Assembly (NCBI RefSeq): GCF_036885605.1
Contig: NZ_CP142523.1
Location: 3,782,001-3,846,000 of the forward strand
Direction: 5' to 3'
From: Janthinobacterium sp. TB1-E2
GTDB taxonomy: Bacteria > Pseudomonadota > Gammaproteobacteria > Burkholderiales > Burkholderiaceae_D
Length of the DNA: 64,000 bases
The number at the start of each line of letters is the position of its first letter. Position 1 is the first letter of the stretch. The notes beneath the pieces were generated by a model, which had not been told where the DNA came from, searched no databases, and was given only the letters and a program-made list of their open reading frames with translations. Both the position numbers and the translations under genes were made by a program. Shown here in pieces: positions 20,571-31,649 of this stretch.

Positions 20571-21033
20571 GGTATGTATTTCCTGGGGCGGCCACGGCGG
20601 CACCGCACAGATTGCGTAGTTCGCGCTTCCCGGCCCGGGAAACGCCCATCGTCGAATTTGTAGTAAATTTACCTTATTGCTTCACCATCCTCTTGATTTC
20701 CATCAAAAAAAATCCTACTCAAAGGGCCAACAAGGGCTTACGAGCTATTTACCAGGGCAACAATATGAAAATTTACTACGCATTTAAGCGAAAGGCAATC
20801 AACTTTTGTCTTTCGAAGCGGAAAAGTGACGGCGCAACACACACGGCCGGCGCTCTCCTGTATGCTGCGGATGAAACAAGGATGTAATCCACATCTTTCA
20901 CACACCTGACAAAAACGTAGCGAGCGGATGAGAGTTGTGGCCGAGAAGCGCAGCTGTGCGGATGCACAGTGAGCATCGCAGGCCGCAAATCGCGATGCGC
21001 AGTAGCTTTGTCGGGTGTTTACTCTCTACTCCC
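20571..21033. other. Intergenic region between ppc and nsrR, no gene seen
   Basis: The first 300 bases are AT-richer than their surroundings and must hold the ppc promoter. A 91-codon frame at 20612-20887 lacks a ribosome-binding site and family features. The last part (20902-21018) is a long folded palindrome described separately. A small CGAAAG/CTTTCG hairpin lies near 20789-20817. Confidence 0.6.
20902..21018 (+). other. Structured multi-stem element directly upstream of nsrR
   Basis: An outer 12-bp stem, ACACCTGACAAA (20902-20913) with TTTGTCGGGTGT (21007-21018), has one T-G wobble and closes about 93 nt. Inside are a perfect hairpin CTGTGC-GGAT-GCACAG (20954-20969) and a perfect 7-bp stem GCATCGC/GCGATGC (20973-20979 and 20992-20998). 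GGCC at 20939-20942 and 20981-20984 offers an alternative pairing. The element ends 15 nt before the nsrR ATG, which has no Shine-Dalgarno sequence of its own. It could be a structured leader, a small RNA or a MITE-like repeat; the sequence alone does not decide. Confidence 0.6.
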
Positions 21034-21489
21034 ATGCGACTGACTGCCTATACCGACTACACCCTGCGCACCCTGATGTACCTGGGCGTGCACCGCGACC
21101 GCCTCGTCACCATCCAGGACATCGCCGACCTGCATGCCATCTCGAAAAATCATTTGATGAAGGTGGTGCACCAGCTGGGCCTGTCCGGCATCGTGGAAAC
21201 GGTGCGTGGGCGCAATGGCGGCCTGCGCCTGGCGCGCGATCCGGCCGAGATCAATATCGGCACCGTCGTGCGCGAGACGGAAAACGATTTTTTCATGGCG
21301 GAATGTTTCAACAAAGAAAACAATACCTGCCCGCTGACACCCGATTGCCTGCTGAAAGCCAAGCTGGGCCAGGCCACGGCCGCCTTCCTGGCCGTGCTCG
21401 ACACGGTGACCCTGGCGTCGATACTCGAAGCGACGCCGGGCGCGCCCGCGCTGGCGGCCGGCGTGATCCCCCTGCGCGTGGCAAAGTAA
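21034..21489 (+). CDS. nsrR: Rrf2-family NO-sensing repressor NsrR
   Basis: A 151-residue iron-sulfur repressor. The winged helix (about 1-75) opens MRLTAYTDYTLRTLMYLG and contains VTIQDIADLHAISKNHLMKV and RGRNGGLRLA. The cluster ligands C91, C99 and C105 sit in ECFNKENNTCPLTPDC; the spacing is C-x7-C-x5-C, slightly wider than the C-x4-C-x5-C of E. coli NsrR. Nitrosylation of the cluster relieves repression. The closest likely target is the hemerythrin-hmp operon at 23671-25299, whose upstream region has an NsrR-like site. The ATG lies 15 nt after the structured element. Confidence 0.9.
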   Translation: MRLTAYTDYTLRTLMYLGVHRDRLVTIQDIADLHAISKNHLMKVVHQLGLSGIVETVRGRNGGLRLARDPAEINIGTVVRETENDFFMAECFNKENNTCPLTPDCLLKAKLGQATAAFLAVLDTVTLASILEATPGAPALAAGVIPLRVAK

Positions 21490-23670: not shown

Positions 23671-24852
23671 TCAGTTCAAGGCGGCAGCCGGTCCGAAGAA
23701 TTCATGGTGCGTCTGCTGTTCCGGCACGCCCAGTTCGCGCAAGTATTGCTTGACGGCCCGCATGAATGGCTGCGGTCCCAGGAAATAGGCATCGACATCG
23801 CGCGAGGCCGGCAGCCAGTCATTCAGCTGCTCTTTATTCAGCAAGCCGACGGCATCCGGTGCATCGTGTTCGCCACCATGTTCCGCATAGCAGTAATAGC
23901 GCTGCAGCTGCGGATGTTGCGCGGCCAGCTCGTCGATCTGCGCGCGAAACGCATGCACGCCGTGGTTGCGCGCCGCGTGGATGAAGTGCACGGGACGCTT
24001 GCCGCGCAGGGCCGCCGTCAGCATGGCCAAGGTCGGCGTGATGCCCACGCCGCCGCTGATCAGCACCAGCGGCTTGTCGCTGTCTTTCAGCACGAAGTCG
24101 CCCGATGGCGGCGTCAGCTGCACAGTGTCGCCCGCCTGCACATGGTCGTGGAAATGGTTCGACACCTTGCCGCCCGCTTCGCGCTTGACGCTGATGCGGT
24201 AGGTCTGGCCATTGCTGGCGGCCGACAGCGAGTACTGGCGGCGCATGGGCACGCCATCGACGGTGGCCACCACGCCGATGTACTGGCCTGGCGCGAAGTC
24301 GAGCACGGGCTGGCCATCAACGGGCGCCAGCAGGAAGGATGTGATCTCGCCGCTTTCCACTGTCTTGCTGCGCACGGTAAAGTCGCGCGCGCCGCTCCAG
24401 CCGCCCGGTGCGGCCGCCTGCGCCTTGTAGATGCGCCCTTCTTCGCCGGCCAGGATGTCGGCCAGCTGGCCGTAGGCCGCGCCCCAGGCATCGATGACGG
24501 CATCGCTGGCGACCTCTGCGCCCAGCACTTCGCGGATCGCCTGCAGCAGGCTGGCACCCACGAGCGGATAGTGCTCGGCGCGAATCTGCAAGGCCACATG
24601 CTTGTTGACGATGGTCGACACGAGGTCGCCCAGCGCATCCAGTTGATCGATATGCTTGGCATACATCAGCACGCCATTGGCTAGCGCGCGCTGCTGGTCG
24701 CCGCTGTGCTGGTGCGCCTGGTTAAAGTACGGCAGCACTTCCGGATGGTCGCGGAACAGATTCTTGTAGAAGTGGCGCGTCAGCGCTTCGCCGCCCTGCT
24801 CGAGGATGGGGACGGTGGCCGTGATGATGGCGCGTTGTTCTTGGGTCAGCAT
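23671..24852 (-). CDS. hmp: Flavohemoprotein, nitric oxide dioxygenase
   Basis: A 393-residue NO dioxygenase that turns NO and O2 into nitrate using NAD(P)H. The globin domain (about 1-140) has LTQEQRAIITATVP, PYFN and the proximal-His region NKHVALQIRAEHYPLVG. The FAD-binding domain has RQYSLSAASNG and the NAD domain GGVGITPTLAML, ending HHEFFGP. AGGAG precedes the ATG by 6 nt. It follows a hemerythrin gene by 33 nt, and both are likely repressed by NsrR. Confidence 0.95.
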   Translation of the reverse strand: MLTQEQRAIITATVPILEQGGEALTRHFYKNLFRDHPEVLPYFNQAHQHSGDQQRALANGVLMYAKHIDQLDALGDLVSTIVNKHVALQIRAEHYPLVGASLLQAIREVLGAEVASDAVIDAWGAAYGQLADILAGEEGRIYKAQAAAPGGWSGARDFTVRSKTVESGEITSFLLAPVDGQPVLDFAPGQYIGVVATVDGVPMRRQYSLSAASNGQTYRISVKREAGGKVSNHFHDHVQAGDTVQLTPPSGDFVLKDSDKPLVLISGGVGITPTLAMLTAALRGKRPVHFIHAARNHGVHAFRAQIDELAAQHPQLQRYYCYAEHGGEHDAPDAVGLLNKEQLNDWLPASRDVDAYFLGPQPFMRAVKQYLRELGVPEQQTHHEFFGPAAALN

Positions 24853-30148: not shown

Positions 30149-31649
30149 CAACAGCGATGCTCTGATCCTGAACGTCGATGACAGCGACGGCGCACGCTAC
30201 GCCAAATCGCGCATCCTCAAACGCGCCGGCTTCAAGGTCATCGAAGCCTCGAATGGGGGCGACGCGCTGCTGCGCGCCCGCCAGGACCGCCCCAACCTGA
30301 TCCTCCTCGACGTCAAGCTGCCCGACATCAACGGCCTGGAAGTGTGCCGCCAGCTGAAGGGCGGCGCCGAGACGAACACCATCCTGGTGCTGCAGACGTC
30401 CGCTTCCTGCATCGGCACGGCCGACAAGATCCGCGCCCTCGATGGCGGCGCCGACAATTACCTGGTCGAGCCGATCGAGGCCGATGAACTGATCGCCAAC
30501 GTCAAGGCGCTGCTGCGGCTGGGACGGGTCGAGCGCGCGCTGCGTGACGTGGACCGCCGCAAGGATGAATTTCTGGCCACCCTGGCGCACGAATTGCGCA
30601 ACCCGCTGGGCCCCATCCGCACGGCACTGGCCCTGCTGTGCAAGCTCGACCCCGTCGTGCCGGCCGTGCAGGACAACGCACGCCGCACCATCGGCCGCCA
30701 CACCGACCACCTGGTGCGCCTGGTAGACGACCTGCTCGACGTGTCGCGCATCTCGCAGGGCAAAATCTCGCTGCAATGGGAAAGCGTGAGCCTGGCCAGC
30801 GTCATCCGCAGCGCGCTGGAGACGAGCTCGCACAGCGTCGAAGCGCGCGGCCATGCGCTGGACGTGAACCTGCCCAAGGAAGAGCTGTGGGTCTGCGGCG
30901 ACGCCGTGCGCCTGTCGCAGATCGTCGCCAACCTGCTGCTCAACGCGGCCAAGTTCACGGCGCCGGGCGGGCGCATCGCCATCACCGCCGTGCGCGAAGG
31001 CGACAACGTGCGCATCCGCCTGAGCGACAACGGCATCGGCATCGCCGCCGCCAGCATCGACAGCATCTTCGGCCTGTTCGAGCAGAGCGGCCACTCGCCC
31101 GACCGGGTGCAGGACGGCCTGGGTATCGGCCTGTCGCTGGTGCGCAACCTGGTGACCTTGCACGGCGGCCAGGTCAGCGTGCACAGCCCCGGCGTGGGAC
31201 TGGGCAGCACCTTCGAAGTCATCCTGCCGCTCGACGCCAACCTGCCGCAGCCGGCCGCGCCAGCGCCGGAGGCGGCCGCCGGCGGCAGCCAGCGCATCCT
31301 CGTCGTCGACGACAACTGCGATGCGGCCGACACCCTGGCCGAACTGCTGGAAATGTACGGCCACACGGTGCGCACGGCCTACACGGGCACGCAAGCGACC
31401 GAGCGCACCCTGGAATTCAAGCCCGACATCGTCTTTCTCGACATCGGCCTGCCCGACATGAGCGGCTACGACGTGGCCATCAAAATGCGCCAGCTGCCGA
31501 TACCGCAGCAATTCCTGCTCGTCGCGCTGACCGGCTATGGCCAGGAACACGACCGGCAGGCGGCCCTGGCGTCGGGTTTCAACGAACACTTCGCCAAGCC
31601 CGTCGATTTTGGCAAGCTGGCCATGCTGGGATTGCATATCGCACCGTGA
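30129..31649 (+). CDS. REC-HisKA-HATPase-REC hybrid histidine kinase
   Basis: A 506-residue cytoplasmic kinase. The N-terminal receiver (about 10-130) has LILLDVKLPDING and ends LVEPIEADE, where Glu replaces the usual Lys of the KP motif. HisKA has LAHELRNPLGPI, HATPase has LLNAAKF, DNGIGI and GLGIGLSLV, and the C-terminal receiver has IVFLDIGLPDMSG with AKPVD. It overlaps the preceding gene by 20 nt, using ATG 30129 or 30135. It should exchange phosphate with the upstream kinase's receiver and is the last gene of the stressosome cluster. No DNA-binding output is attached. Confidence 0.9.
   Translation: MRMLPDNNSDALILNVDDSDGARYAKSRILKRAGFKVIEASNGGDALLRARQDRPNLILLDVKLPDINGLEVCRQLKGGAETNTILVLQTSASCIGTADKIRALDGGADNYLVEPIEADELIANVKALLRLGRVERALRDVDRRKDEFLATLAHELRNPLGPIRTALALLCKLDPVVPAVQDNARRTIGRHTDHLVRLVDDLLDVSRISQGKISLQWESVSLASVIRSALETSSHSVEARGHALDVNLPKEELWVCGDAVRLSQIVANLLLNAAKFTAPGGRIAITAVREGDNVRIRLSDNGIGIAAASIDSIFGLFEQSGHSPDRVQDGLGIGLSLVRNLVTLHGGQVSVHSPGVGLGSTFEVILPLDANLPQPAAPAPEAAAGGSQRILVVDDNCDAADTLAELLEMYGHTVRTAYTGTQATERTLEFKPDIVFLDIGLPDMSGYDVAIKMRQLPIPQQFLLVALTGYGQEHDRQAALASGFNEHFAKPVDFGKLAMLGLHIAP

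Follow-up and report, generated by a model that had tools for sequence, protein, structure and literature searches.

The window analysed here, a 64,000-nt stretch of a Janthinobacterium chromosome, holds a strongly folded segment that ends just ahead of an nsrR-like gene. The question raised by this locus is whether the fold is a switch built into that gene or belongs to something else. The evidence below argues that the hairpin upstream of nsrR is a copy of a jumping hairpin rather than a built-in gene switch; related hairpins usually lie beside stop codons, with the same core and different ends.

A single long hairpin upstream of nsrR

The segment at 20902-21018 (117 nt) folds at -57.2 kcal/mol, compared with -39.1 +/- 3.2 kcal/mol for shuffled sequences (z -5.58), and none of 200 shuffles was as stable, which bears out the judgement of an earlier note on this DNA that such a fold is unlikely by chance. 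The opposite strand folds more weakly (-44.2 kcal/mol, z -3.8). The stems described in that note were all recovered: a 12-bp outer stem (ACACCTGACAAA/TTTGTCGGGTGT, 20902-20913 with 21007-21018, 11 Watson-Crick pairs and one G.U), a 6-bp hairpin with a GGAT loop and an inner stem (GTTGTGGCC/GGCCGCAAA). The spacing of 15 nt from the element to the nsrR ATG (21034) was also as described. The term multi-branched had to be given up, since the stems are nested in a single unbranched, irregular hairpin and neither of our two covariance models (R1 and R2, below) has a branch point. The naming of the gene stood in part: its product belongs to the Rrf2 family of regulators (Pfam Rrf2, E 4e-36), and its matches to the NCBIfam RirA and NsrR models lay under their cut-offs. 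The locus is made up of the following parts.

20897-20899, no strand: TTC, left remnant of a presumed TTA target duplication, degenerate in the nsrR copy (from the empty site in 19 congeners)
20900-21020, + strand (best-folding strand): the whole putative MITE copy with IS5-type ends, one of about 47 covariance-model copies in the genome, with an empty site in congeners; boundaries placed to within 1-2 bp here
20902-20915, + strand: 5' arm ACACCTGACAAAAA, the left terminal inverted repeat, equal to the terminal inverted repeat ACACCTAACAAAAC of a resident IS5-family IS bar two substitutions; arm pairs covary among copies
20916-21005, + strand: 90-nt conserved structured core CGTAGCGAGC...GCGCAGTAG, aligned in 35 copies and matched by R2 (E 8e-10)
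20954-20969, + strand: apical hairpin CTGTGC-GGAT-GCACAG (helix 4), with double changes among copies at most of its pairs
21006-21018, + strand: 3' arm CTTTGTCGGGTGT, the right terminal inverted repeat, from the fold and from covariation among copies
21019-21021, no strand: TTA, right half of the presumed target duplication, from the empty-site comparison; the family-wide TNA signal lies at offset 2, in this copy at offset 0
21034-21489, + strand: nsrR-like Rrf2 regulator (Pfam PF02082), neighbour only

Dispersed copies and empty sites

A blastn search of the element's own genome (a 6.3-Mb chromosome) returned 40 places on both strands with unrelated neighbours, and a covariance model built from 35 of these (R1) found 47 strong copies with E values near or below 1e-11. 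At about 120 nt the element is thus short and present in many dispersed copies. The count also answers the test that the earlier note had proposed, in which one copy per genome would mean a leader and many a mobile repeat. Copies occur in 33 of the 36 congeners searched, ranging from one to at least 57; two of the three congeners without any are incomplete assemblies.

Gene context was read from our own gene calling within loci taken from genomes. In orthologous 20-kb regions of two congeners, G029 and G035, several loci are empty. Among these are L015, where two convergent genes meet at TAA-c-TTA, L025, which reads TGATCA, and L035. Presence/absence polymorphism is therefore seen at nsrR and at further loci, and the hemE-nfi interval of E. 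coli K-12 is a candidate empty site. Where orthologous sites in G029 and G035 are filled, the flanks are 95-99% identical and the elements differ, and at several loci the difference between filled and empty exceeds a clean insertion. The L031 comparison shows the same arms around a core of another subtype, a pattern suggestive of gene conversion. At L024 both arms differ at most positions with pairing kept. The G029 copy at the L027 locus is a perfect palindrome, as would be expected of a footprint of template switching, a process that produces perfect stems (PMC8794818). From these patterns we propose that the arms drift after insertion while complementarity is kept, through hairpin-templated repair, selection for pairing or both, and that cores may be exchanged between copies by gene conversion.

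Some copies depart from the usual layout. Mini-forms of about 45 bp, with arms joined by only GACGCGCAGCA or similar, lie in the source genome at 31460-31500, 2169269, 2874340 and 2937531 (L324, L326, L328 and L329) and are probably deletions between ACCG repeats of the core. At 6194250 of the same genome (L331) a hairpin repeat has the same arms (AACACCTGAGAAAAC...TTTTTCAGGCGTT) around a different core that resembles the superfamily core by eye. Two added complementary segments, GGCTCGGCGCCCCC and GGGGGCGCCGAGCC, are found in L172, L182 and L187 of G029 and at the L043 locus of the source genome, where their predicted pairing crosses the inner helix in a pseudoknot-like way; some copies with the extra-segment insert have the 3' segment only.

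Covariation and strand preference

In an alignment of 35 copies, standard pairs fill 92.5% of the pair cells, against 30-38% in slid controls, and double changes occur at 33 of 46 pairs (170 double-changed cells, 43 in shuffles). The superfamily alignment gave double changes at 25 of 33 pairs (132 cells, 34 in shuffles). Variation is greatest in the outer arms, which nevertheless keep their pairing: in L030, L036, L044 and L046, which are off-consensus, 12-13 of 14 positions are Watson-Crick. The covariation check suggested in the earlier note is thus strongly positive, but the signal arises among copies of a mobile element and not among nsrR orthologues. Covariation among copies of a mobile hairpin can mimic proof of a local riboregulator. 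Part of it could also be mutational: template switching can itself yield compensatory changes, so covariation alone is no proof of selection on RNA.

The two strands are not equivalent. In the core G.T outnumbers A.C by 187:9, and the arms show 31:9. Choosing the pairs on the + strand inflates this G.T ratio; the count from the arms and the folding energies give a fairer picture. By energy the + strand is the more stable in 36 of 36 Janthinobacterium copies and in 24 of 28 superfamily members. The G.U asymmetry and the conservation of the core across genera suggest that the core may be kept for a function that needs the single-stranded + strand fold, most likely as RNA.

Ends shared with IS5-family elements

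Scanning the source chromosome for the arm sequence as a pattern revealed two inverted matches separated by 0.9 kb (588,090-588,985). This is an IS with ends GAACACCTAACAAAAC and GTTTTGTTAGGCGTTC and a TTA flanking each side, and its transposase is divided between two ORFs (Pfam DUF4096 and DDE_Tnp_1, NCBIfam transpos_IS5_3). The split-frame transposase may be inactive. The element's arms, about 16 bp long, match the terminal inverted repeats of this IS5-family IS, and its interior is not common to the IS. Among 77 distinct Janthinobacterium copies, TNA lies at offset 2 outside the arm in 32 at the 5' end and in 20 at the 3' end, compared with 1-10 at other offsets, and this is where the resident IS has its TTA. 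Identical triplets on both sides at offset 2 occur in five of the 77, so that exact duplications are rare and the genus shows TNA enrichment instead; in the nsrR copy the duplication is degenerate (TTC/TTA). In genome G056 identical TWA duplications flank 12 of 12 copies, and in G055 YTAR duplications flank four of five.

The same core is found with different ends: Janthinobacterium copies have ACRCCTGACAAAAC and TNA sites, G056 copies AACCTGTCTAAAGTCT and TWA duplications, and G055 copies CAGGCYGTTGAAAAAC and YTAR duplications. There are 289 end sites in G056 which, among the matches listed, are element pairs or singles by appearance. An IS of another IS5 subgroup in G055 (transpos_IS5_4, 305 bits) has ends equal to those of the G055 elements, as the resident IS has in the source genome. 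No IS carrying the arms was seen in Curvibacter. In Pseudomonas, Mitsuaria and Paucibacter, some copies pair at just 4-8 positions of the arms, which do not resemble IS5 ends, so IS5 elements may not explain the family in all hosts. G055 also holds a form of about 206 bp (L374, L375) with the same ends and an added nested hairpin of about 65 nt, in about six copies by end spacing.

It is highly probable, in our estimate, that the element is a non-autonomous mobile element (MITE) in which a conserved structured core of 90-110 nt lies between two terminal inverted repeats of an IS5-family IS. A resident IS5-family transposase would recognise the arms and insert the element at TNA, elsewhere at TWA or YTAR, as the common ends and the target duplications suggest.

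Related cores across Gammaproteobacteria

Long forms of the core occur in other Burkholderiales, and a pattern scan returned named Beta- and Gammaproteobacteria and Troglogloeales MAGs. A second covariance model, R2, was built from 28 long forms with zero Janthinobacterium sequences, and it recovers the Janthinobacterium copies with a best E of 2.5e-11, and 8e-10 for the nsrR copy. In 114 genomes, one per genus and drawn evenly across the class, R2 has matches in 40, roughly a third, with high copy numbers in Rudaea (61), Pseudomonas (58) and Halomonas (39). A plasmid copy from Yersinia (L383) scored 68 bits (E 9e-16), and a chromosomal copy in E. coli O121, adjoining the hemE stop codon, scored 71 bits (E 4e-17); at the corresponding site in E. 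coli K-12, hemE and nfi are 9 nt apart. DNA resembling the Yersinia copy was found by blastn in 5,375 of 5,426 E. coli genomes, at a median of 5 places.

Rfam 15 gave no family over its gathering threshold in the whole window or in the element at 8 loci with long forms; the best sub-threshold match was sX9 (E 1.2, minus strand). None of the papers searched contains the element's sequence strings, and literature searches on Janthinobacterium with REP or MITE turned up nothing of relevance, subscription papers and ISfinder lying outside their scope. Repeated hairpins in Actinobacteria (L234, L264, L289 and others) are bounded by the same CGTAGCGAGCG...GCGCAGTAGG motifs; R2 was silent in two such genomes, and these hairpins were left out of the superfamily. 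One Pseudomonas contig bearing an element also carries a guanidine-I riboswitch (L271, 4884-4988, 89 bits).

We put forward tentatively, as a reading that may well prove too broad, that these copies form an unrecognised superfamily spanning Gammaproteobacteria. An RNA-like core would be kept across genera while its ends are swapped to suit the resident IS5-family transposase; copies would settle at stop codons and act as RNA at gene ends, and ERIC would be a distant branch. Such a superfamily offers natural replicates, in which one core occurs with different ends and in different hosts and close relatives differ in whether a site is filled or empty. These replicates, together with the blastn relatives in nearly all E. 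coli genomes, make mobility and RNA function separately testable.

Placement at gene ends

A gene tail lies on the element's 3' side in 25 of 36 copies. In 21 of the 36 a convergent gene ends at the 3' arm, with its stop codon -14 to +6 nt from the arm. There is no stop-codon excess on the 5' side. Of 47 places in other taxa, 30 have the tail of a gene as their closest neighbour on the 3' side. The TNA triplets at the 3' end are mostly stop codons read from the other strand (TCA 13, TTA 6, TAA 1), and enrichment of the TNA target means that insertion sites can coincide with stop codons. TNA covers the stop codons TAA and TGA (TTA and TCA on the other strand); insertion there would duplicate the stop and leave the protein intact, and this may be why such insertions survive. 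The target triplet explains the tight placement and leaves over the prevailing orientation.

If the core were a functional 3'-end RNA element maintained by the host, such as a terminator, an mRNA stabiliser or a modulator of translation termination, with transposition as its mere means of spread, then the observed class-wide conservation of core sequence and pairs, the G.U asymmetry and the proximity to stop codons would be expected. One Thiobacillus core used as query gave just 2 matches in plasmids and none in phages, which would also fit. However, presence and absence vary even among close congeners, a single genus spans copy numbers of 0 to at least 57, and an enterobacterial member occurs in 95 plasmid records. 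Moreover, where the element adjoins a stop codon, that gene's mRNA bears the less stable strand. We regard this explanation, as opposed to a selfish MITE, as possible and on balance doubtful.

That the core inserts into pre-existing hairpins such as terminators, whose stems then serve as its arms, is improbable. It would account for arms that vary from locus to locus within one genome and yet pair, and the Pseudomonas copy L271, with an A/T-run beside a GC stem, is terminator-like. Against this, the empty sites at L015, L025, L035, L037 and nsrR are without such a hairpin, and most Janthinobacterium arms are one consensus, equal to the IS end.

A REP-like element moved by a RAYT (HUH tyrosine) transposase is very improbable. 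GTAG (or GTCG) stands beside the hairpin in almost all copies, as GTAG does at the foot of REPs, which are likewise often near or overlapping gene ends (PMC3733652), and the source genome has three Y1_Tnp genes. A crude scan found no GTAG hairpin near any of the three, and no copy of the element adjoins them, so that 0 of 3 RAYT loci in this genome are flanked by the repeat. The element is also far longer, at 120-146 nt against 20-40 for REPs (PMC3733652), and both the target duplications and the pairing of its terminal repeats suggest a DDE transposase instead.

The insertion at nsrR

The nsrR gene is present in the congeners searched, and the element stands upstream of it in 2 of the 21 genomes read, the source genome and G029. 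The other 19 of the 20 congeners have an empty site, ...CATCT-TTA-TGAAC..., plain CCACATCTTTATGAACGA...ATG or close variants. Since only G029 of the 20 congeners is filled and 19 are plain, the element was probably inserted, at or near a TTA, in the ancestor of the source strain and G029. On this sequence evidence, the copy at nsrR arrived recently and by chance in the gene's 5' region, and its neighbourhood is incidental. Of the options that the earlier note had set side by side, the MITE-like repeat was the right one, given the many copies, unrelated neighbours and empty sites.

A cis-acting nsrR leader, in which a folded 5' UTR acts as riboswitch or riboregulator to gate translation, has in its favour the 15 nt to the start codon, the strong sense-strand fold and the position within the 5' region, but it is refuted as a conserved function and most unlikely as an explanation of the element, which is missing in 19 of 20 congeners that keep nsrR and has about 47 copies at other sites by unrelated genes, mostly at 3' ends. 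A putative translational effect on nsrR in the source strain, as a by-product, is possible. The absence of a Shine-Dalgarno sequence before nsrR, to which the earlier note had pointed, is real but uninformative on the element, because the 20 congeners have no obvious one either and 19 of them are element-free. Also near nsrR, the window contains a putative flavohaemoprotein-like ORF, Hmp-like by sequence (23671-24852, minus strand); a flavohaemoprotein is a typical NsrR target.

Relation to known repeats

We know of no agreed reason for the conserved folds and 3'-end positions of ERIC and REP, which have been known for decades. Minor E. coli repeats such as RSA have also been catalogued and are further candidates for comparison with the superfamily. 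Bacterial IS5-family MITEs resemble the element in length (about 120 bp), in terminal inverted repeats common with a resident IS5-family IS, in a short duplication, in many copies and in a mostly intergenic position. Unlike them, the element has a conserved structured core as its interior, found with the ends of two IS5 subgroups.

ERIC (IRU), a 127-bp enterobacterial repeat, is similar in length and is a single long imperfect hairpin. One E. coli ERIC copy, near cusC (L385), aligns with R2 end to end at a level that is not significant (10.1 bits, E 0.35 in 15.8 kb), and the other ERIC copy gave no match; ERIC may be a distant relative of the superfamily. TA duplications have been described for enterobacterial repeats of the ERIC kind (PMC2759123). 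The 168-bp Yersinia repeat YPAL (RU-2) is likewise not A+T-rich, forms a hairpin and targets sites beside dyad symmetry (PMC2229807), whereas its published sequence (PMC2759123), judged by eye alone, is without a recognisable core. Two Yersinia repeats found de novo, Kristensenii39 (142 bp) and Aldovae3 (154 bp), are compatible with the superfamily, to which the Yersinia copy L383 belongs, in their reported copy numbers, those for E. coli included (PMC2847712).

Other repeats occupy some of the same gene ends. At the L013 locus in G029 and the L041 locus in G035 the element is absent and another palindromic repeat (GGGGTCAGACCCGGCGGGTCTGACCCC or similar) lies at the same gene end, and at the L011 locus in G035 a typical GTAG-REP (GTAGGTCGGATTAGCGCGCAAGCGCGTAATCCGAC) takes the element's place.
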